A program made the position numbers and the translations under genes. Positions 32,451 through 41,904 of a stretch of DNA of 64,000 bases are shown here, piece after piece (the stretch's first letter is position 1; each line of letters opens with the position of its first letter). This DNA is from Candidatus Faeciplasma pullistercoris (GTDB taxonomy: Bacteria > Bacillota > Clostridia > Oscillospirales > Ruminococcaceae): positions 1 through 64,000 of the forward strand of contig DVLL01000012.1 in NCBI GenBank assembly GCA_018715525.1, in the 5' to 3' direction. The notes beneath the pieces were generated by a model. The model did no database searches. It was not told the origin of the DNA and saw only the letters and a list, made by a program, of their open reading frames with translations.

Positions 32451-33791
32451 ATGACTAAGCTTAAAAATTTATTTTCAACTCCAATAAAGGCGGCAGTTAC
32501 CGTAGCATGTATGCTTGTAATCGTTGCGCTGGTAGGCACAGCGGTTGTGTTTATAGGCAGAGCGGCTGCCGGAGCTGATGCAATCGGCTCTGATAAGGCG
32601 CAGATGTTCGCCTTTGCCGACGCGGGAGTAGACCCGACGTCAGCGGAGAGAGTACACACTGAATTTGACTACGAGAACGGTGAATTCGTATACGACATTG
32701 AATTTGTTGCCGGCGGAAAAGAATACGAGTACCGTATAAAGGCAAATGACGGCGCGATAATCAGCCGAAGCTCGGAGCTCGTTGACAGTCAGCAGAATAC
32801 AGGCGCGGTAACCGGAAACACCGATGTTCAGCCGCAAGGCTCTGATGATTCAAATGTAATCACCGCCGATGAGGCGAGAGCGGCAGCGCTTGCCGACGCG
32901 GGGCTCAGCGAATCCGAGGTTACATTTACCAAGACCCAGCTTGACCGTGACGACGGAGTGCAGGAGTACGAGGTAGACTTCTACACCTCCGATAAGGAGT
33001 ACGACTACGAGATCAACGCCATAACCGGCGAGATAATCAGCAGAGAGTCCGAGACCTTCAAGAATAATTCCTCCTCACAGCAGACTCAGACCTCCGGCGA
33101 CGTAATCACCGCCGAGGAGGCGAGAGCGGCAGCGCTTGCCGACGCAGGACTCAGCGAATCCGAAGTGACCTTCACTAAGACCCAGCTTGACCGTGACGAC
33201 GGAGTCCAGGAGTACGAGGTAGACTTCTACACCTCCGATAAGGAGTACGACTACGAGATCAACGCCATAACCGGCGAGATAATCAGCAGAGAGTCCGAGA
33301 CCTTCAAGAATAATTCCTCCTCACAGCAGACCCAGACCTCAGGCGACGTAATCACCGCCGATGAGGCGAGAGCGGCAGCGCTTGCCGATGCAGGACTCAG
33401 CGAATCCGAGGTCACATTTACCAAGACTCAGCTTGACCGTGACGACGGAGTTCAGGTATACGAGATTGAGTTCTACACCTCTGACAGAGAGTGTGAATAT
33501 GAGATCAACGCCACAACCGGTAAGGTTATAAGCAGGAGCTCTGAGACTTACAGGACTCAGAGCCAGAACCCCGGAAATGCCTCCTATATCGGTGTGGATA
33601 AGGCTAAGGAAATCGCCGCAGGGCACGCCGGAATATCCTTGAGCGGCGCCACCTTCTCAAAGGCAAAGCTTGAGCGCGACGACGGCTACATGGTATACGA
33701 GATAGAGTTCTACTCAGGCGGAATCGAGTACGAGTACACCATCGACGCCGTGACCGGAGACATCATCGAATACGACTCCGAGCACCACTGA
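32451..33791 (+). CDS. Membrane-anchored PepSY-repeat protein
   Basis: 446 residues. One N-terminal transmembrane helix (about 13-36) and then five PepSY-like domains outside the cell. Domains 2-4 (residues about 136-217, 218-299, 300-381) are nearly identical 82-residue copies, each with DEARAAALADAGLSESEV, KTQLDRDDGVQ and YEINAITG; domains 1 and 5 are diverged. Ser/Gln/Thr linkers separate the copies. PepSY domains often inhibit proteases or modulate envelope factors. It follows a two-component system and may be its output. Confidence 0.85.
   Translation: MTKLKNLFSTPIKAAVTVACMLVIVALVGTAVVFIGRAAAGADAIGSDKAQMFAFADAGVDPTSAERVHTEFDYENGEFVYDIEFVAGGKEYEYRIKANDGAIISRSSELVDSQQNTGAVTGNTDVQPQGSDDSNVITADEARAAALADAGLSESEVTFTKTQLDRDDGVQEYEVDFYTSDKEYDYEINAITGEIISRESETFKNNSSSQQTQTSGDVITAEEARAAALADAGLSESEVTFTKTQLDRDDGVQEYEVDFYTSDKEYDYEINAITGEIISRESETFKNNSSSQQTQTSGDVITADEARAAALADAGLSESEVTFTKTQLDRDDGVQVYEIEFYTSDRECEYEINATTGKVISRSSETYRTQSQNPGNASYIGVDKAKEIAAGHAGISLSGATFSKAKLERDDGYMVYEIEFYSGGIEYEYTIDAVTGDIIEYDSEHH
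32856..33593 (+). repeat. Three tandem 246-bp repeats inside the PepSY gene
   Basis: Repeats begin at 32856, 33102 and 33348, each at GTAATCACCGCCGA. The first two are nearly identical at DNA level; the third diverges in its second half. The 246-bp period is exactly 82 codons, so copy number can change without breaking the frame. Confidence 0.9.
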
Positions 33792-33885: not shown

Positions 33886-34800
33886 TCAGCGCGCGTTGTC
33901 CAGATATCTGCACGCTGCCAGAGCGGCTACCGCTCCGTCAGCTACAGCAGTGGTGAGCTGTCTTACTTCCTTTTTTCTGCAATCTCCCGCAACAAATATT
34001 CCGGGATATATCGTCTTGCAGTCTTCGCCTGAGTCTGCATAGCCAGCCTGGTCAAGCCTTATGAGCTGGGAGGCGAATCCGTTTTCCGGCTCGTGACCTA
34101 TGGCGATAAAAAGCCCGTCAAGCGTGAGCTCTTTCTCGGTTCCGTCAACAGTGCTGCGAAGCGTTACACCGCTTAGCTTGCCATCGCCGTGAACCGCACT
34201 GATGGTGGAGTTGAGTATATACTCGATGTTGTCTCTATCGGCGGCTGAGTCGACAACGGCTGAGTCCGCTCTGAACTCGGAGCGGCGGTGTATAACGTAT
34301 ACCTTGCTGCAAATCTGGGAGAGGTATATCGCTTCCTGAAGAGCGGTGTTTCCGCCGCCGTTTACAGCGACGACCTTATTTCTGAAGAACTCGCCGTCGC
34401 ATACGGCGCAGGTGGAAATTCCGGCGCCGATAAGAGCATCCTCGTGCTCAAGCCCTAATTTTTTTGCCTTAGCCCCGGTGGCTATGATAACCGCGCGGCA
34501 GCTATAGCTATCGCCGTACGGAGTGGAAAGAGTAAAGACTCCGTTTTCCTCCGATATGTTTGATATCTCGTTAAGCTCGAGCTCTGCTCCACAGTTGGTA
34601 GCCTGTACGGTCATAAGGTCGGCAAGCTCCAGTCCGGAAATCGAGCTGAAGCCGGGAAAATTTTCAACCTTGGGCGACCAGGTAATCTGACCGCCCAAGG
34701 TGTTCTTTTCCAAAATCAGTACCGACCTGCCGGCGCGGCAGGCATAGAGGGCTGCGGTAAGTCCCGCAGGTCCTCCTCCGATAATGATTATATCATGCAT
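33886..34800 (-). CDS. trxB: Thioredoxin reductase
   Basis: 304 residues from the ATG at 34800, which lies inside the nrdD end (8-bp overlap) with GGAGAG upstream. FAD-binding GGGPAGLTAALYACRAG, NADPH-binding GGGNTALQEA, redox motif CAVC in STCAVCDGEFF, and FIAIGHEPEN. It passes electrons from NADPH to thioredoxin-type partners. Being coupled to nrdD, whose product ends in a thioredoxin-like domain, suggests it feeds ribonucleotide reduction directly. Confidence 0.92.
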   Translation of the reverse strand: MHDIIIIGGGPAGLTAALYACRAGRSVLILEKNTLGGQITWSPKVENFPGFSSISGLELADLMTVQATNCGAELELNEISNISEENGVFTLSTPYGDSYSCRAVIIATGAKAKKLGLEHEDALIGAGISTCAVCDGEFFRNKVVAVNGGGNTALQEAIYLSQICSKVYVIHRRSEFRADSAVVDSAADRDNIEYILNSTISAVHGDGKLSGVTLRSTVDGTEKELTLDGLFIAIGHEPENGFASQLIRLDQAGYADSGEDCKTIYPGIFVAGDCRKKEVRQLTTAVADGAVAALAACRYLDNAR

Positions 34801-37189
34801 TTTTTCTCTCCGCATTCTGAGCAAGGAACTGTTTGATAGCTCCTGCTCCTACATACTTTACAAATTCCTCGCCGTCGGCGATAACTAATGTGGGAGCCTG
34901 TGTGATCCCGTACTTGCTGCAAAGCTCGGGATTCTCGTTTGCCATGACCTTCTCATAGCCGAAGTTCGCCTTTTCAAGATAGCCGTACGCTATTCTGCAA
35001 TTCGGGCAGGTTGGCGTGGCGAAGAGCATAGCCTTTGCCTCGCAGCCACAGGAGGGCTTGATATCCGCTTTCTTCTCGGAGGCAGCGGAGCCGAGCGGCT
35101 TGCTGTGAGTGAGGACGCTTGTCTCGATATTGTACTCGCGGCGCTCCTTGTACTCCTGAGTCTTGCCGGCGTTCCAGTTCTGTACAGGACGGTAGTAGCC
35201 GGTGATTCTGCTGTAAACCTCGGCAGCCTCTCCGCACTTGGGGCAGACAAACTGCTCGCCGGTGAGATAGCCGTGGCTCTTGCACACCGAGTAGGTGGGA
35301 GAAATGGTGTAGTAGGGAAGCCTGTAGTTTTCGGCAATCTTGCGAACAAGCGTTGCGGCAGCTTCCCAGCTCGGCATCTTTTCACCGAGGAAGGCGTGGA
35401 ACACCGTTCCGGAGGTGTAAAGGGTCTGGAGCTCGTCCTGAATGTCAAGAGCGGAGAAGATATCGTCGGTGTATCCGACGGGAAGGTGGCTGCTGTTGGT
35501 GTAGTAGGGATCTCCTCCTGCCTCGGCTGCGGTGATGATGTCTGGGAACTGCTCCACATCATGCTTTGCAAGACGGTAGGAGGTGGACTCGGCGGGGGTA
35601 GCCTCGAGGTTGTAAAGATCGCCGTACTGCTCCTGATAGTCGGAAAGACGCTCTCTCATGTGGTTGAGCACGTCCTTTGTGAACTGCTGGCACTTGGGGT
35701 CGGTCATGTCCGCTCTTATCCACTTGGCGTTAAGACCGGCCTCGTTCATGCCGACAAGACCGATTGTAGAGAAGTGGTTGTCAAGGGTGCCGAGGTATCT
35801 CTTGGTGTAGGGATAAAGACCCTCGTTCAAGAGCTTAGTTATAACCGTTCTCTTTACCTTGAGGGAACGAGCGGCAATGTCCATCATTCTGTCGAGCCTT
35901 GCGTAGAAGTCCTTTTCGTCCTCGGCAAGGTATGCGATTCTGGGCATGTTTATCGTAACGACTCCGATAGATCCGGTGCTCTCTCCAGAGCCGAAGAAGC
36001 CGCCGGACTTCTTTCTGAGCTCTCTTAGGTCAAGTCTCAGACGGCAGCACATAGAACGGACGTCGCTCGGCTCCATATCGCTGTTGATGTAGTTGGAGAA
36101 GTAGGGGGTGCCGTACTTGGCGGTCATCTCAAAGAGAAGCTTGTTGTTCTCCGTGGGAGACCAGTCGAAGTCGCTTGTGATGGAGTAGGTGGGAATGGGG
36201 TACTGGAAGCCTCTTCCGTTGGCGTCTCCCTCGATCATTATCTCGATGAACGCCTTGTTGACCATGTCCATCTCCTTCTTGCAGTCGCCGTAGGTGAAGT
36301 CCATTTCCTTGCCGCCTACTATCGCGGGAAGATCCTTGAGGTCGTTGGGAACCGTCCAGTCAAGGGTAATGTTGGAGAACGGAGCCTGAGTGCCCCAGCG
36401 TGAAGGAGTGTTTACTCCGTAGATGAAGGACTGGATGCACTGCTTCACTTCCTTGTAGCTAAGGTTATCTACCTTAACAAACGGAGCGAGGTATGTGTCG
36501 AATGAGGAGAACGCCTGAGCGCCCGCCCACTCGTTCTGCATGATTCCGAGGAAGTTTACCATCTGGTTGCACAGGGTGGAAAGGTGGCTTGCGGGGGAGG
36601 AGGTTATCTTTCCGGGAACTCCGCCGAGGCCTTCCTTTATAAGCTGCTTTAAGCTCCAGCCGGCGCAGTAGCCGGTGAGCATCGACAGATCGTGAATGTG
36701 CATATCGCAGTTCTTGTGAGCGTTGGCTATCTCCTCGTCATAGATCTCCGAGAGCCAGTAGTTTGCGGTGATAGCTCCTGAGTTTGAAAGGATAAGACCG
36801 CCGACAGAGTAGGTGACGGTGGAGTTTTCCTTCACACGCCAGTCGAGAACCTTGAGGTAGTTGTCAACGGTGGCCTTGTAGTCAAGATATGAGCCCTTGA
36901 GGTTGCGGAGCTTCTCACGCTGCTTGCGGTAAAGGATGTAAGCCTTGGCTACCGCATCGTAGCCGCCCTGAATGAGCACTGTCTCGGCACTGTCCTGAAT
37001 GTCCTCAACGGCAACCAGACCGTTCTTGATCTTTGGCAGGAAGTCTGCGGTCACCTTGAGGGCAAGGAAGTCGATGATGTTGTCGGTATAGTCGGTGTTG
37101 GTGGCTTCAAAAGCCTTTTTGATCGCGTTGGCGATCTTGTTGATGTCAAACTCAACTATCTTTCCGTCTCTTTTTACTATTTGGTACAT
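34793..37189 (-). CDS. nrdD: Anaerobic ribonucleoside-triphosphate reductase with fused thioredoxin-like domain
   Basis: 798 residues from the ATG at 37189, whose GAGAGGAG site overlaps a weaker upstream TTG. Order: ATP-cone (about 1-95), 10-stranded catalytic barrel with finger-loop SMCCRLRLD, a zinc site (SVCKSHGY...FVCPKCGE), and the glycyl-radical motif RITGY (Gly at about 664). Most NrdD proteins end soon after this point. Here a linker and about 75 residues of thioredoxin/glutaredoxin fold follow, with CPNC (728-731) and a cis-Pro region QAPTLVI. Reduces NTPs to dNTPs without oxygen. Coupled to trxB; activated by NrdG encoded upstream. Confidence 0.93.
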   Translation of the reverse strand: MYQIVKRDGKIVEFDINKIANAIKKAFEATNTDYTDNIIDFLALKVTADFLPKIKNGLVAVEDIQDSAETVLIQGGYDAVAKAYILYRKQREKLRNLKGSYLDYKATVDNYLKVLDWRVKENSTVTYSVGGLILSNSGAITANYWLSEIYDEEIANAHKNCDMHIHDLSMLTGYCAGWSLKQLIKEGLGGVPGKITSSPASHLSTLCNQMVNFLGIMQNEWAGAQAFSSFDTYLAPFVKVDNLSYKEVKQCIQSFIYGVNTPSRWGTQAPFSNITLDWTVPNDLKDLPAIVGGKEMDFTYGDCKKEMDMVNKAFIEIMIEGDANGRGFQYPIPTYSITSDFDWSPTENNKLLFEMTAKYGTPYFSNYINSDMEPSDVRSMCCRLRLDLRELRKKSGGFFGSGESTGSIGVVTINMPRIAYLAEDEKDFYARLDRMMDIAARSLKVKRTVITKLLNEGLYPYTKRYLGTLDNHFSTIGLVGMNEAGLNAKWIRADMTDPKCQQFTKDVLNHMRERLSDYQEQYGDLYNLEATPAESTSYRLAKHDVEQFPDIITAAEAGGDPYYTNSSHLPVGYTDDIFSALDIQDELQTLYTSGTVFHAFLGEKMPSWEAAATLVRKIAENYRLPYYTISPTYSVCKSHGYLTGEQFVCPKCGEAAEVYSRITGYYRPVQNWNAGKTQEYKERREYNIETSVLTHSKPLGSAASEKKADIKPSCGCEAKAMLFATPTCPNCRIAYGYLEKANFGYEKVMANENPELCSKYGITQAPTLVIADGEEFVKYVGAGAIKQFLAQNAERKNA

Positions 37190-37257
37190 TTTTGTTTCTC
37201 CTCTCAAACCTATTCTATATCCGTTGATAAGTCAATGTCAGAGGCTGTCTCAGACAT

Positions 37258-37950
37258 TTATATGCCTCTAATCTCTACCGACCTGACGAAGGGTCTGACT
37301 ATGTCGGCAAACCGGCTTAGCTCGTCAGGAGTGAACTGACTCAGCCCCGCAGGGTCTATAAGCTCGCCAGAGTCCTTGAACTGCTGTAAATAATATTCGC
37401 TCGCGCCGTCTATCCATTTAGCTATGGATTCAAAATCTGCGTCAGTGTGTATTCCCTTGACGACAGTCGTCCTGAACTCGTAGTCGATGCCTCCTCCGAG
37501 CAGAAAATCCTTCGATTCCTCTATCCCGGTGATGTCAAGCCCGCTTACGCCAACTGCGAACGGATAGTTTTCCGGGGAGCTCTTTATATCCATCGCCACC
37601 CTGTCCACCAGCTTGCCGGCGACCAGCCGCTTCAGAAGCTCGGGTCTGGTTCCGTTGGTGTCAAGCTTGACCTTGTATCCGAGCTCCTTGACCGACGTCA
37701 GAAAGCTTGCTATGTCCGGCTGTAATAGAGGTTCTCCTCCGGTTACCACGACCCCGTCCAAGAGCCCGCGCCGCCTCTTCAGAAAGCTTAGCACCTCGTC
37801 CTGAGGTATTCGCTCACCGGCTGTGCTGAATACAAGCGAGGAGTTGTGGCAGAAGGGGCAGCGAAGGTTGCAGCCCGGCGTGAAAACTATGCACGCTACC
37901 GTTCCGGGAAAGTCGAGAAGGGTCAGCTTCTGAAGTCCCGCAATTTGCAT
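37258..37950 (-). CDS. nrdG: Anaerobic ribonucleotide reductase activating protein (radical SAM)
   Basis: 230 residues. The radical SAM cluster motif CNLRCPFCHN (CxxxCxxC) follows MQIAGLQKLTLLDFPG; GGEPLL and the SAM-binding strands follow. It generates the glycyl radical on NrdD. It resembles the longer NrdG variant often found with oxygen-independent reductases of Clostridia rather than the short E. coli form. First gene of nrdG-nrdD-trxB, 68 bp before nrdD, with a strong promoter at 37983-38011. Confidence 0.93.
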   Translation of the reverse strand: MQIAGLQKLTLLDFPGTVACIVFTPGCNLRCPFCHNSSLVFSTAGERIPQDEVLSFLKRRRGLLDGVVVTGGEPLLQPDIASFLTSVKELGYKVKLDTNGTRPELLKRLVAGKLVDRVAMDIKSSPENYPFAVGVSGLDITGIEESKDFLLGGGIDYEFRTTVVKGIHTDADFESIAKWIDGASEYYLQQFKDSGELIDPAGLSQFTPDELSRFADIVRPFVRSVEIRGI

Positions 37951-38011: not shown

Positions 38012-38033
38012 TATCAAATACAAGATATAGTGA
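37986..38033 (-). promoter_or_regulatory. NrdR-box-like pair at the nrd promoter
   Basis: Minus-strand TCACTATATCTTGTAT (38033-38018) fits the NrdR consensus acaCwAtATaTwgtgt at 13 of 16 places. A weaker match, GCACAAGATGAGTTAT (38001-37986), about 9 of 16, is centred 32 bp away, close to the spacing used by paired NrdR sites. The strong box is just upstream of -35; the weak one overlaps the promoter spacer. Confidence 0.5.
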
Positions 38034-38198: not shown

Positions 38199-38274
38199 GC
38201 GCTTGTAGCTCAGTGGATAGAGTGCCCGGCTACGAACCGGTAGGTCGTGAGTTCGAATCTCCCCAGGCGCACCA
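38199..38274 (+). tRNA. tRNA-Arg (ACG)
   Basis: A full cloverleaf of 76 nt including an encoded ACCA end. The acceptor GCGCTTG pairs with CAGGCGC (one G-U), D-arm TAGCTCAGTGGATAG, anticodon ACG at 38232-38234 in CCGGCTACGAACCGG, and T-arm GTGAGTTCGAATCTC-type. ACG is normally edited to ICG. A terminator follows at once. Confidence 0.95.
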
Positions 38275-38675: not shown

Positions 38676-39539
38676 TTAGCTGATTACAAATTTATAGTTA
38701 ATGTACAACGAGGAGAATATATTAGCTGTAGAACTGCTGCCATCGCTGGTGCAGTAGTAATAATAAGAAGTCTCGGGGGTTGGACCTGACACTCTTGATG
38801 TCCCGAGCCACCAGCTTACCCCCTTCGTTCTGCCTGCGGTCGTTTCAAAGAGCTGGAATCGCGTGCTTCCAAAGATGTCGCCGTATTCTATAAGCTGCAA
38901 CTGACCGGTTACGGTTCTTAGCTCCTTAGGCAGGGTGTAGTAGTAGGTTCTGTTCAACCAGTCGAAAAGCGTCACCTCACCGTCCCACATCTCACGTTGG
39001 AATTTCGGCAGCTTGATGTCGAACCAGATGTTGTTGCCGCCTCGGTTGATATCCACTATCTCCGCCTCAAGAGAGTAGCTTCCGTCGCTGAAGCTTTTTG
39101 TGTCGCCGATGCTCCATATGCTTGCGGCGCTTCCGGACTGAGCCGCCGATTTGATTGCTGCCCATGACGCGTTCTCAAGTTCGATACCAACGTTTAGCTC
39201 GACAACATACTGGGAATCGGAGCTTATTGTTACTGAGGCGGAGCTGGTAAGCACGCCGAAGGTCGCTGTCACGCTCCATACGCCGGAGTATGGGATGTCA
39301 AAGGAGTACGCTCCTTGAGATACGCCGGTAAGGGTGGTTGAGCCGTTTTTTGCCGTGACTTGGTTCCCGCTCTCAGTTATGACTATGAGCCTTGTGCTTG
39401 AGGGGGAGTAGCTGCCGTATATCAGAACGCCAGCCGAGTCGTGCGCGGTGTAGCCTGAGAGGAGCTTGTCGGCGCTGACTGTATCCTGAGTCAGGTCTAT
39501 CAGGGTGTTTCCTGCGTATATAACCTTATTTACAGCCAT
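38676..39539 (-). CDS. Phage tail-type protein with a DUF6273-like C-terminus
   Basis: 287 residues, ATG at 39539 with GAGAGGG upstream. Residues 1-45 (MAVNKVIYAGNTLIDLT.DTVS...LLSGYTAH) match the start of the next gene's product, a shared N-terminal module. Residues about 50-115 look like a small beta (carboxypeptidase-like) domain. The C-terminal third (KSFSDGSYSLEAEIVDINR, then GVSWWLGTSRVSG...SYYYYCTSDGSSS) resembles the DUF6273/C-type-lectin-like ends of gut phage and surface proteins. Probably a host-binding or tail-tip part. Confidence 0.6.
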   Translation of the reverse strand: MAVNKVIYAGNTLIDLTQDTVSADKLLSGYTAHDSAGVLIYGSYSPSSTRLIVITESGNQVTAKNGSTTLTGVSQGAYSFDIPYSGVWSVTATFGVLTSSASVTISSDSQYVVELNVGIELENASWAAIKSAAQSGSAASIWSIGDTKSFSDGSYSLEAEIVDINRGGNNIWFDIKLPKFQREMWDGEVTLFDWLNRTYYYTLPKELRTVTGQLQLIEYGDIFGSTRFQLFETTAGRTKGVSWWLGTSRVSGPTPETSYYYYCTSDGSSSTANIFSSLYINYKFVIS

Positions 39540-39553
39540 CTTATCCCTCTCTT

Positions 39554-40132
39554 CTACCCGGCAATGGTTACTGTTGTTCCGCCTGCCGAGTTTTGCGACT
39601 CGACATAGCTGATGGCGTTTACCGTGACCTGAGAAAGATAGTCGTAGCCGCTGTCAGGCAGGATGACCTGCTGCTGTGTGGAGGGAGTGACGGATTTTGC
39701 CTGAGCAGTAACATTTGAGGAGGATTCCATTGTTCCTGTCACGCCGAGTATCTGGATACCGGAGCGAATGTTGGTAGGAATGATTTTAGCCTGCTCGGAA
39801 GCGGATATCCCTACTTTTCCGCTTCCATCGTGGTAACCCTGCGGGATGGTATATTCTTCGGATTTTGCGGCTATACTTCCGTTTACTCCGCCACGGTTGG
39901 GCATTGTACCGGTCAGCATTGAGCCTCTGGCATAGGCTGTTTTGCCGCTGAGTATTTCTGCGGTCTGAGCTGTAGCGTCCTGTGAATTTACATCATAGCC
40001 GCAGCTTCCGGTTATCAATTCTCCGTTTGCTCCGTGAGCGGTCACGCCGGTGAGCAGGCTTGCCTCGCTCACGGTGTCAGACGTCAGATCTATCAGTATT
40101 TGATCTCCGTAAATTACCTTGCTTATTGCCAA
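39554..40132 (-). CDS. Phage tail-fibre-like repeat protein
   Basis: 192 residues from a TTG at 40132 with GAGAGG upstream. The N-terminal module MAISKVIYGDQILIDLTSDTV is shared with the following gene. The rest has loosely repeated segments such as TAEILSGKTAYARGSMLTGTM and SGIQILGVTGTM, which are common in tail-fibre and appendage proteins. Soluble, no signal peptide. Third gene of a four-gene minus-strand operon. Confidence 0.65.
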   Translation of the reverse strand: MAISKVIYGDQILIDLTSDTVSEASLLTGVTAHGANGELITGSCGYDVNSQDATAQTAEILSGKTAYARGSMLTGTMPNRGGVNGSIAAKSEEYTIPQGYHDGSGKVGISASEQAKIIPTNIRSGIQILGVTGTMESSSNVTAQAKSVTPSTQQQVILPDSGYDYLSQVTVNAISYVESQNSAGGTTVTIAG

Positions 40133-40133
40133 A

Positions 40134-40430
40134 TTATATTACCTCTCTTCCTATATAGACCGTCTCGCCGTCAGCAGGGTTTGAAACCCGGTAGAATGGA
40201 ATTTCTTTGACGGTAAGGTTGTCGGTCATCAGCTTGTTTTGTGTTTGCAGTATTGTTTCTTCCGTTTTCGGCGTAACCTCATACGGCCCTGTGTACTGTT
40301 CTGCGCTTTTGACCACGGTCGCGCTTCCGAAATCGGCTTCAAACTTCTTTTCCAAATGGCAAAATGCCGGGTCAAAATCAGCGCTGCCGCCGGTAAAGAC
40401 CGTTTCAAAGCTCTTATCGGCGTAAGGCAT
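40134..40430 (-). CDS. Small phage-structural-type protein
   Basis: 98 residues, starting in a TGATG overlap with the upstream gene. Opens MPYADKSFETVFTGG; middle has TPKTEETILQTQNKLMTDNLTVKEIPFYRVSN, a pattern met in tail-associated proteins of Firmicutes phages, where similar text precedes fibre genes. No enzyme motif. It probably forms part of the same tail-like structure. Assigned mainly by neighbours. Confidence 0.55.
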   Translation of the reverse strand: MPYADKSFETVFTGGSADFDPAFCHLEKKFEADFGSATVVKSAEQYTGPYEVTPKTEETILQTQNKLMTDNLTVKEIPFYRVSNPADGETVYIGREVI

Positions 40431-40744
40431 CAGATTTCACCGCCCTTGAGAACCTTTTCCACTCTTTCGCTGATTATCTGGCTCGCAAAGGCGGCTCCGG
40501 TGCTTGTGCGGAATCTTATCTGAATAAGACAGTCCGAGTCTGGGGATAGCTTAAGCGTCTCGGTTTGCGAAAGGGTCACCGAGGCAACGCAGCTTCCGTC
40601 CTCCATGTCTGTAAAGGATATGTCATCGCCGCTTTTTTCTATTAGCGAGGAGTTGTTCTGGTTGTAGCTCACATATATCTCGCCGACCGAAGAGCTTGGC
40701 ACCGGCAGAGTAAAGCTGTGAGTCGGGGTCGTGCCCTGTCTCAT
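40430..40744 (-). CDS. Phage baseplate/tail-type protein
   Basis: 104 residues, ATG at 40744 with AAGGAAGTG upstream. MRQGTTPTHSFTLPVP... then IYVSYNQNNSSLIEKSGDDISFTDMEDG..., a beta-sandwich-like layout often met in small proteins beside fibre genes of Firmicutes prophages. First gene of the tail-type operon. I found no clear promoter in 40745-40943, so it may be read from the Cro-side promoter upstream. Confidence 0.55.
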   Translation of the reverse strand: MRQGTTPTHSFTLPVPSSSVGEIYVSYNQNNSSLIEKSGDDISFTDMEDGSCVASVTLSQTETLKLSPDSDCLIQIRFRTSTGAAFASQIISERVEKVLKGGEI

Positions 40745-41298: not shown

Positions 41299-41316
41299 AA
41301 TACAGAGGTGATATCA

Positions 41317-41904
41317 ATGAAGATCGGCGAAATCATTTACACGAGGAGAAAGGAGCTCGGACTCACCCTTGAGGAAGTGGGAGAGGCTGTCGGCGTAGGA
41401 AAGAGCACGGTCAAAAAGTGGGAGACCGGCAGCATTTCAAATATGCGCAGGGACAGGATATCCCGGCTCGCGCAGGTACTGCGGCTCGACCCGTCGGTAT
41501 TTATAAACGACGAGACCGGCACAGGAAACAGGATACCGCTGATTGGCAGCATTGCGTGCGGCAGACCGATTTTTGCCGATGAGAATATAAGCGAATATAT
41601 AGAGGCAGGCGGACTTGTCCATGCGGATTTTGCGCTTAGATGCAGAGGAGACAGCATGACGGGTGCGAGGATATACGACGGTGATATAGTCTTTATCCGC
41701 TCTCAGCCCACTGTCGAGAACGGGGAAATAGCTGCGGTGATAATAAACGATGAGGCGACTTTAAAGCGTGTCTACTTAAAAAACGGTCAGCTTACCCTCG
41801 TGGCGGCGAATCCTGAATATGAGCCGATGGTGTTTTCGGGGAGAGAGCTTGAAACTATCCACATAATCGGCAAGGCGGTCAAGTTCCTTGGAAATTTGAA
41901 TTAG
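41317..41904 (+). CDS. CI/LexA-type repressor with S24 self-cleaving domain
   Basis: 195 residues from the ATG at 41317 (AGAGGTG site). HTH about 1-60 (LTLEEVGEAVGVGKSTVKKWETG). A short hinge precedes the S24 peptidase fold: cleavage site Cys81-Gly82 (GSIACGRP), nucleophile Ser113 (RGDSMTGARI) and Lys150 (EATLKRVY). RecA-stimulated self-cleavage would lift repression on DNA damage. It is divergent from the Cro-like gene and the tail-type operon. Confidence 0.9.
   Translation: MKIGEIIYTRRKELGLTLEEVGEAVGVGKSTVKKWETGSISNMRRDRISRLAQVLRLDPSVFINDETGTGNRIPLIGSIACGRPIFADENISEYIEAGGLVHADFALRCRGDSMTGARIYDGDIVFIRSQPTVENGEIAAVIINDEATLKRVYLKNGQLTLVAANPEYEPMVFSGRELETIHIIGKAVKFLGNLN

Follow-up and report, generated by a model that had tools for sequence, protein, structure and literature searches.

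The nrdG-nrdD-trxB locus analyzed here lies in a 64,000-nucleotide stretch of the genome of Candidatus Faeciplasma pullistercoris (assembly GCA_018715525.1, contig DVLL01000012.1, positions 1 to 64,000; hereafter, the window). All three genes were found on the minus strand (Table 1). The class III ribonucleotide reductase (RNR) NrdD continues past its glycyl-radical domain into a fused thioredoxin/glutaredoxin-like (redoxin) domain and, judging from the sequence and structural models, quite probably carries its own tethered thiol reductant within this unit. The nrdD frame starts with an ATG at 37189, while an alternative TTG-extended reading begins at 37207; the stop codon occupies 34795–34793, and the ATG of trxB (34800) lies inside nrdD, giving an overlap of 8 nt.

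Table 1. Features of the nrdG-nrdD-trxB locus with their positions in the window.
Feature	Position	Strand	Basis
nrdG, NrdG2-type radical-SAM glycyl-radical activase, first in the unit	37258..37950	-	TIGR02495, 212 bits (cut-off 131)
nrdD, class III ribonucleotide reductase, 798 aa, C-terminal redoxin fused	34793..37189	-	sequence, Pfam, NCBIfam
ATP-cone, residues 3-92 of NrdD	36914..37183	-	PF03477, 80 bits
NRDD catalytic core and glycyl-radical domain, residues 121-686	35132..36829	-	PF13597, 641 bits
Finger-loop motif MCCR, residues 380-383	36041..36052	-	61 of 61 aligned rows, the window among them; motif meaning, PMC9669993
Glu529, aligned to the proton-donor Glu495 of T. maritima NrdD	35603..35605	-	alignment; PMC9669993; 61 of 61 rows
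Gly664 in RITGY, presumed glycyl-radical site	35198..35200	-	sequence; 61 of 61 rows
Variable linker, residues 689-716	35042..35125	-	length spread; low model confidence
Fused thioredoxin/glutaredoxin-like domain, residues 717-798	34796..35041	-	Pfam, AlphaFold, Foldseek, alignment
CPNC redox motif, residues 728-731	34997..35008	-	conserved in public loci; C, P and C invariant in 81 sequences
cis-Pro position, Pro766 in QAPTLV	34892..34894	-	invariant in 81 sequences
trxB, thioredoxin reductase, 304 aa from ATG	33886..34800	-	TIGR01292, 360 bits (cut-off 343)
HRRSEFR, NADPH 2'-phosphate motif of TrxB	34270..34290	-	sequence; motif meaning, PMC5627308, PMC6262447
Candidate NrdR box upstream of nrdG	38018..38033	-	single mismatch to a degenerate pattern

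The NCBIfam model PRK08270 spans residues 1–688 of NrdD (positions 2–683 of its 684), so that the final 110 residues are additional to the known enzyme. Within the whole protein this tail narrowly missed the Pfam Thioredoxin cut-off (23.4 versus 23.5 bits); the isolated domain passed both Thioredoxin (27.8/23.5 bits) and Glutaredoxin (24.7/22.9 bits), and the best solved thioredoxin-fold protein matched it at 1e-9. AlphaFold predicted for the domain alone a beta-alpha-beta-alpha-beta-beta-alpha arrangement (mean pLDDT 93.1, pTM 0.82), for which Foldseek returned 168 PDB matches at E ≤0.001, the best 50 being mostly thioredoxins with fold-switched KaiB in first place. Most of residues 717–798 were also confident in the full-length model, and pLDDT was below 50 at residues 701–716. 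Among 81 aligned domains, only both cysteines and the proline of CPxC and the cis-Pro were invariant; the motif was CPNC in 79 of 80 public loci and CPKC in one, and the linker varied there from 23 to 56 residues (median 31). PF00462 was matched by all 81 members at E ≤0.01 and the NrdH model TIGR02194 by 79; the window domain scored 23.4 bits with the latter, far below its cut-off of 85.75, and was not assigned to the NrdH family. The predicted fold, the CxxC motif and the cis-Pro place it in the thioredoxin/glutaredoxin superfamily, and profiles and models together confirm the 82-residue fused redoxin domain as real. A selenocysteine or a split domain was considered and rejected: the stops in two unfused loci (L019, L020) are at the gene end and not in CxxC.

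Class III identity of the core was indicated by an NRDD match over the cut-off, the glycyl-radical motif (R661–Y665, with G664 as its glycine) and the adjoining NrdG. Cys175, Met380, Cys381, Cys382, Arg383, Glu529 and Gly664 were kept in all 61 aligned rows (41 fused and 20 unfused NrdD), as were the putative zinc-site cysteines C636, C649 and C652. In the alignment with Thermotoga maritima NrdD, Cys175 falls on Cys125 and Glu529 on Glu495, which section 4.3 of PMC9669993 names as the proton donor. The third cysteine in the CC finger loop and the proton-donor glutamate are those of NrdD2; the single-cysteine MGCR loop without glutamate, characteristic of the formate-type NrdD1, was not found in the window protein. 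Met380 is common to this protein and NrdD1. According to the pertinent part of PMC9669993, 83% of double-cysteine class III reductases carry this methionine, and for such enzymes both formate and thioredoxin appear to be usable. Since the methionine of MCCR is kept beside the NrdD2 cysteine and glutamate, the core appears NrdD2-like and in principle capable of thiol or formate use rather than exclusively of the thiol type.

The preliminary description of this locus, made from the DNA letters, had placed RITGY at about residue 664, read behind it a thioredoxin/glutaredoxin-like domain with CPNC (C728–C731) and a cis-Pro region (QAPTLVI), put the trxB start within the nrdD end and regarded the fused NrdD and trxB as one unit. 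The motif, the domain with its predicted fold and the gene overlap were all borne out, and the fusion was found in other NrdD proteins as well.

Reading of the sequences showed the fused CPNC tail in 17 genomes, the window genome included, out of 197 sampled from this family. In the class-wide set a close NrdD (E 1e-100) was encoded in 126 of 391 genomes, and 60 of these matches reached residue 786 or beyond and were counted as fused from the listing, again with the window included. From the other 59, 40 loci were fetched, and only these were read as sequence (5 stop-flagged, 8 by choice and 6 fragments were left out), and all 40 carried the CPNC tail. The presence of the tail in so many other genomes means that the fusion in the window is not a chance event. 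For comparison, 20 unfused loci were taken from the remaining 66, some of which are fragments; they comprised all five close relatives, all three at 56% and others by choice. A scan of public genomes with the fused C-terminus gave at least 569 related stretches, of which some may be unfused. The top 80 were fused without exception, as follows from ranking by a fused query. These 80 were labeled Clostridia without a family (41), Oscillospiraceae (26), Lachnospiraceae (7), Erysipelotrichaceae (2), Spirochaetaceae (2), Coriobacteriaceae (1) and Bacillota (1); the Spirochaetaceae and Coriobacteriaceae labels (contigs of 3.7, 6.8 and 80 kb) are possible binning errors and were not relied on. All trees in this work were quick trees. 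In the core tree of 61 rows the 41 fused and 5 unfused rows formed one group. The free tree needs three state changes, and forcing the fused rows together did not worsen the fit (log-likelihood 1.99 higher, p-AU 0.58), so that one fusion event fits the data without being proved by them, and a single origin is compatible with them. No free-standing copy of the domain was detected at E 1e-4 in the sequence stretches around the loci of the five close unfused relatives, which are 74–78% identical.

Two further unfused NrdD relatives, L203 (G721:C7:18900-22600) and L204 (G637:C110:300-3900), had frames of 1103 and 1122 aa. Both contained an insert of about 400 residues, with Cys at its start and HN at its end, between the Met and CC of the MCCR finger loop; these inserts are apparent inteins at the catalytic cysteines. 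Long NrdD frames with a match broken near residues 365–399 were seen in genomes G645, G778, G802, G825 and G754. The survey across the phylum, in which 136 of 398 genomes gave a match, was used for inteins only.

Of the public fused loci, 64 could be assessed for nrdG, which lay upstream of nrdD in 60 of them (16 were not assessable). For trxB, 75 could be assessed, and 58 had the gene on the same strand no more than 400 bp away (5 were not assessable); loci whose downstream sequence was shorter than 1 kb were not counted for trxB. When the window was added to the class-wide set, linkage within 400 bp was seen at 26 of 39 fused loci (2 more not assessable) versus none of the 20 unfused ones; inside the close clade the figures were 26/39 versus 0/5 (Fisher 0.008). 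In the family set, trxB was present within about 1.5 kb in 12 of the 17 fused genomes. Thus, nrdG-nrdD-trxB is a recurrent unit, and it includes a TrxB lineage tied to the fused NrdD.

This lineage was evident among 116 distinct TrxB sequences, 94 linked to nrdD and 22 unlinked (117 before removal of an identical row; two weaker TrxB matches without a locus were excluded); the unlinked ones came from 25 family genomes and public loci and are not a random draw. All 94 linked TrxBs and 5 of the 22 unlinked ones formed one clade (SH-aLRT 99), the other 17 falling outside; four of the five unlinked members are located 1.0 to 1.7 kb from nrdD. The HRR motif is connected with how the 2'-phosphate of NADPH is bound, and NADH-type reductases such as DvTR3 and the T. 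maritima enzyme lack it (PMC5627308). HRRxxxR was missing from 69 of the 94 linked TrxBs: 65 had Q[ND]LxxxT or a near variant in its place and 4 had other sequences, with HRR in the remaining 25. The unlinked TrxBs were of the HRR type in 17 cases, of the Q type in one (L100, 994 bp from its own nrdD) and of other types in four. Q-type TrxBs fell nearly into one subclade (support 92; L072 stood apart), and a Q-type TrxB of the same genus had PDB 7jyp, with QNLPYLT at the HRRxxxR position, as its best match. The pyrophosphate site GxGxxA was kept in 65 of 65 linked Q-type TrxBs, as in NADH-type reductases, suggesting that these enzymes use NADH; some reductases without HRR use neither coenzyme (PMC5627308), so this assignment depends on the retained pyrophosphate site. 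The window TrxB differs from them in being of the HRR type: it is an NADPH thioredoxin reductase by TIGR01292, CxxC, GxGxxA and HRRSEFR, and NADPH fits there.

Three linked TrxBs (L194, L197, L198) belong to neither type: the position of the NADPH motif reads TLFDKFF, and in two of the three GxGxxA is degenerate; these possibly accept electrons from another donor.

The window genome (96% complete) encoded one NrdD and, at E 1e-30, one TrxB, the nrdD-linked copy. Neither a class I/II reductase (PF02867) nor a PFL-like enzyme was found in it, and the latter was not found in either same-genus genome; PF02867 was present in 3 of the 17 fused family genomes. A free thioredoxin was encoded elsewhere in the window genome (C4:17507). 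Since the only TrxB of the genome is the linked one and a free thioredoxin is present, the electron path is probably shared with free thioredoxin rather than private. In L142 (3502-5836, G000:C4), the free thioredoxin gene is followed by a rhodanese-like gene and a flavoprotein gene, by eye CoA-disulfide-reductase-like and not TrxB.

Regulatory sites were also considered, using a degenerate NrdR box pattern. The window contained 13 NrdR-like sites versus 11.8 expected, which is chance level, and only the one upstream of nrdG had a single mismatch; similar sites upstream of nrdG were found in 17 of 58 relatives versus 9 of 406 control windows. If the candidate box is real, trxB would belong to the NrdR regulon together with nrdG and nrdD.

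NrdG installs the glycyl radical on NrdD-type enzymes. In the proposed mechanism, it would place the radical on Gly664, from which the radical would move to a cysteine of MCCR and initiate reduction of the nucleoside triphosphate. Cys175 and a finger-loop cysteine would then supply the electron pair, ending up as a disulfide, and Glu529 would donate a proton, as described for Neisseria bacilliformis NrdD. The redoxin CPNC, on its flexible-looking linker of about 30 residues, would reduce this disulfide within the dimer, and TrxB would return CPNC to its reduced form at the expense of a nicotinamide coenzyme. Going by the TrxB motif, this would be NADPH in the present strain; in most relatives it is probably NADH. 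What the analysis shows is the domain with its predicted fold, the conservation of the catalytic residues, the recurrence of the gene unit and the TrxB lineage; which way the electrons flow, which cysteines exchange and which coenzyme serves are inferred. More tentatively, the whole clade may possess a self-contained thiol module, in which a linked TrxB lineage, most of whose members have exchanged NADPH for NADH, serves the NrdD-redoxin, and Met380 provides a formate fallback, making the enzyme dual-reductant. If so, deoxynucleotides would be made at the cost of NADH from fermentation rather than of NADPH or formate, and the coenzyme-motif switch would link DNA precursor synthesis to fermentative NADH. 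The preliminary description had suggested that a path from NADPH through TrxB and the fused CPNC to the active site is encoded as one unit. The recurrent unit and the conserved redoxin catalytic residues are supported; with Met380 kept, formate may also be used, the path is probably not private, and NADPH fits the window TrxB and was rejected as the general donor across the clade, given 69 of 94 linked TrxBs without its motif.

Several observations weigh against a tethered reductant. The unfused relatives have identical active-site residues, so the fusion leaves no mark on the core and the core gives no sign of dependence on it. The full-length AlphaFold model (63 sequences) had a mean pLDDT of 77.7 with a poor finger loop. 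An adjacent trxB was missing at 13 of 39 class-wide and 17 of 75 public fused loci, and the association between fusion and trxB linkage comes from 1 to 3 independent pairs, too few for it to be accepted as an independent evolutionary correlation. GshF was not found over the cut-off in any of the 17 fused genomes (three weak sub-cut-off matches; other glutathione genes were not sought), and the view that the domain is not glutathione-driven depends on this one marker, whose cut-off no control genome passed either. The retained formate-mechanism residue Met380, present in 61/61 rows, and the PFL-like enzyme encoded in 8 of the 17 fused genomes would suit formate as the main reductant, acting via Met380 and Cys175, with the redoxin only repairing accidental disulfides at the finger-loop cysteine pair or the zinc site after oxidation; so would the apparent dual capacity of methionine-bearing double-cysteine enzymes mentioned above. 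We regard this as unlikely, since a stoichiometric reductant better accounts for the constancy of CPxC and for the TrxB lineage linked to nrdD. The 9 fused genomes without a PFL-like enzyme, those of the window and its genus among them, add weakly to this, as other formate sources exist and the unfused genomes divide 4 and 4; absence of the enzyme was accordingly rejected as proof of formate independence.

A donor other than the linked TrxB, such as the free thioredoxin encoded in 16 of the 17 fused genomes, could mainly reduce the fused domain, the adjacent trxB being merely the general cellular one. In 8 of 12 linked fused family genomes the linked TrxB was indeed the only copy at E 1e-30, but the linked TrxBs form a lineage of their own, and where more than one TrxB was encoded, the readable unlinked copies were HRR types outside that lineage (G020, G170 and G196) or the second copy was of another kind (G106), which makes this explanation decidedly improbable. 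Least credible of all is that fusion and neighborhood are neutral leftovers of one lineage without functional coupling. A single fusion origin is compatible with it and the five close relatives live without the fusion; against it, the catalytic residues alone are invariant in 81 domains while the linker drifts, and linked trxB recurs across many family codes of the class-wide tree. A functional fused reductant seems likely.

A redoxin fused to its own target is a known kind of protein. Among class III enzymes, the methanogen NrdD3/NrdH system is linked to a ferredoxin disulfide reductase. It resembles the window protein in employing a glutaredoxin-like protein, which is there the separate NrdH (PMC9176816); its finger loop is QCCR/A without the glutamate (PMC9669993). 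The NrdD2 enzymes of N. bacilliformis and T. maritima share the third cysteine and the proton-donor glutamate and use a protein thiol reductant, as is predicted here from sequence; as described in the relevant parts of PMC4493059 and PMC9669993, they have SCCR instead of MCCR and no fused domain, their reductant being separate (thioredoxin in N. bacilliformis, an unidentified protein in T. maritima). Glutaredoxin fusions to all RNR components are recorded in PMC6187632, including one grx::nrdD in Lachnospiraceae bacterium TWA4, so the fusion noted in the preliminary description is real but not the first. The TWA4 case, which may or may not be the same fusion, is only listed in the part of that source concerned; the fusion in the window is C-terminal and widespread. 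The same source reports that glutaredoxin fused to Facklamia ignava NrdB (Grx-ATP-cone-NrdB) works as a reductant. There, too, a glutaredoxin-like redoxin shares one polypeptide with an RNR protein, but the experiment there concerned a class I enzyme with an N-terminal domain driven by glutathione, whereas the domain here is C-terminal, belongs to a class III enzyme and usually lies beside trxB. No published study of the NrdD fusion or an nrdD-trxB unit was found in the literature searched, most subscription papers being outside its scope, and nrdD is absent from the main text of PMC10880999 on clostridial thioredoxin systems. As far as this literature extends, the breadth of the fusion, the TrxB lineage and the apparent coenzyme switch are new. 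The choice between formate and thiol by methionine-bearing double-cysteine class III reductases is undecided, and a natural fusion beside a reductase of its own lineage makes it testable.

Elsewhere in the window, positions 32451-33791 (plus strand) encoded a 446-aa protein that contains five PepSY stretches along with extended, near-identical internal repeats, adjoining genes of a histidine kinase and a response regulator. A run of four open reading frames was located at 38676-40744 (minus strand) beside tRNA-Arg (38199-38274); the two that were checked had no Pfam match. It is followed by a Cro/C1-S24 repressor-like gene at 41308-41904, and together they are a possible remnant of a mobile element.

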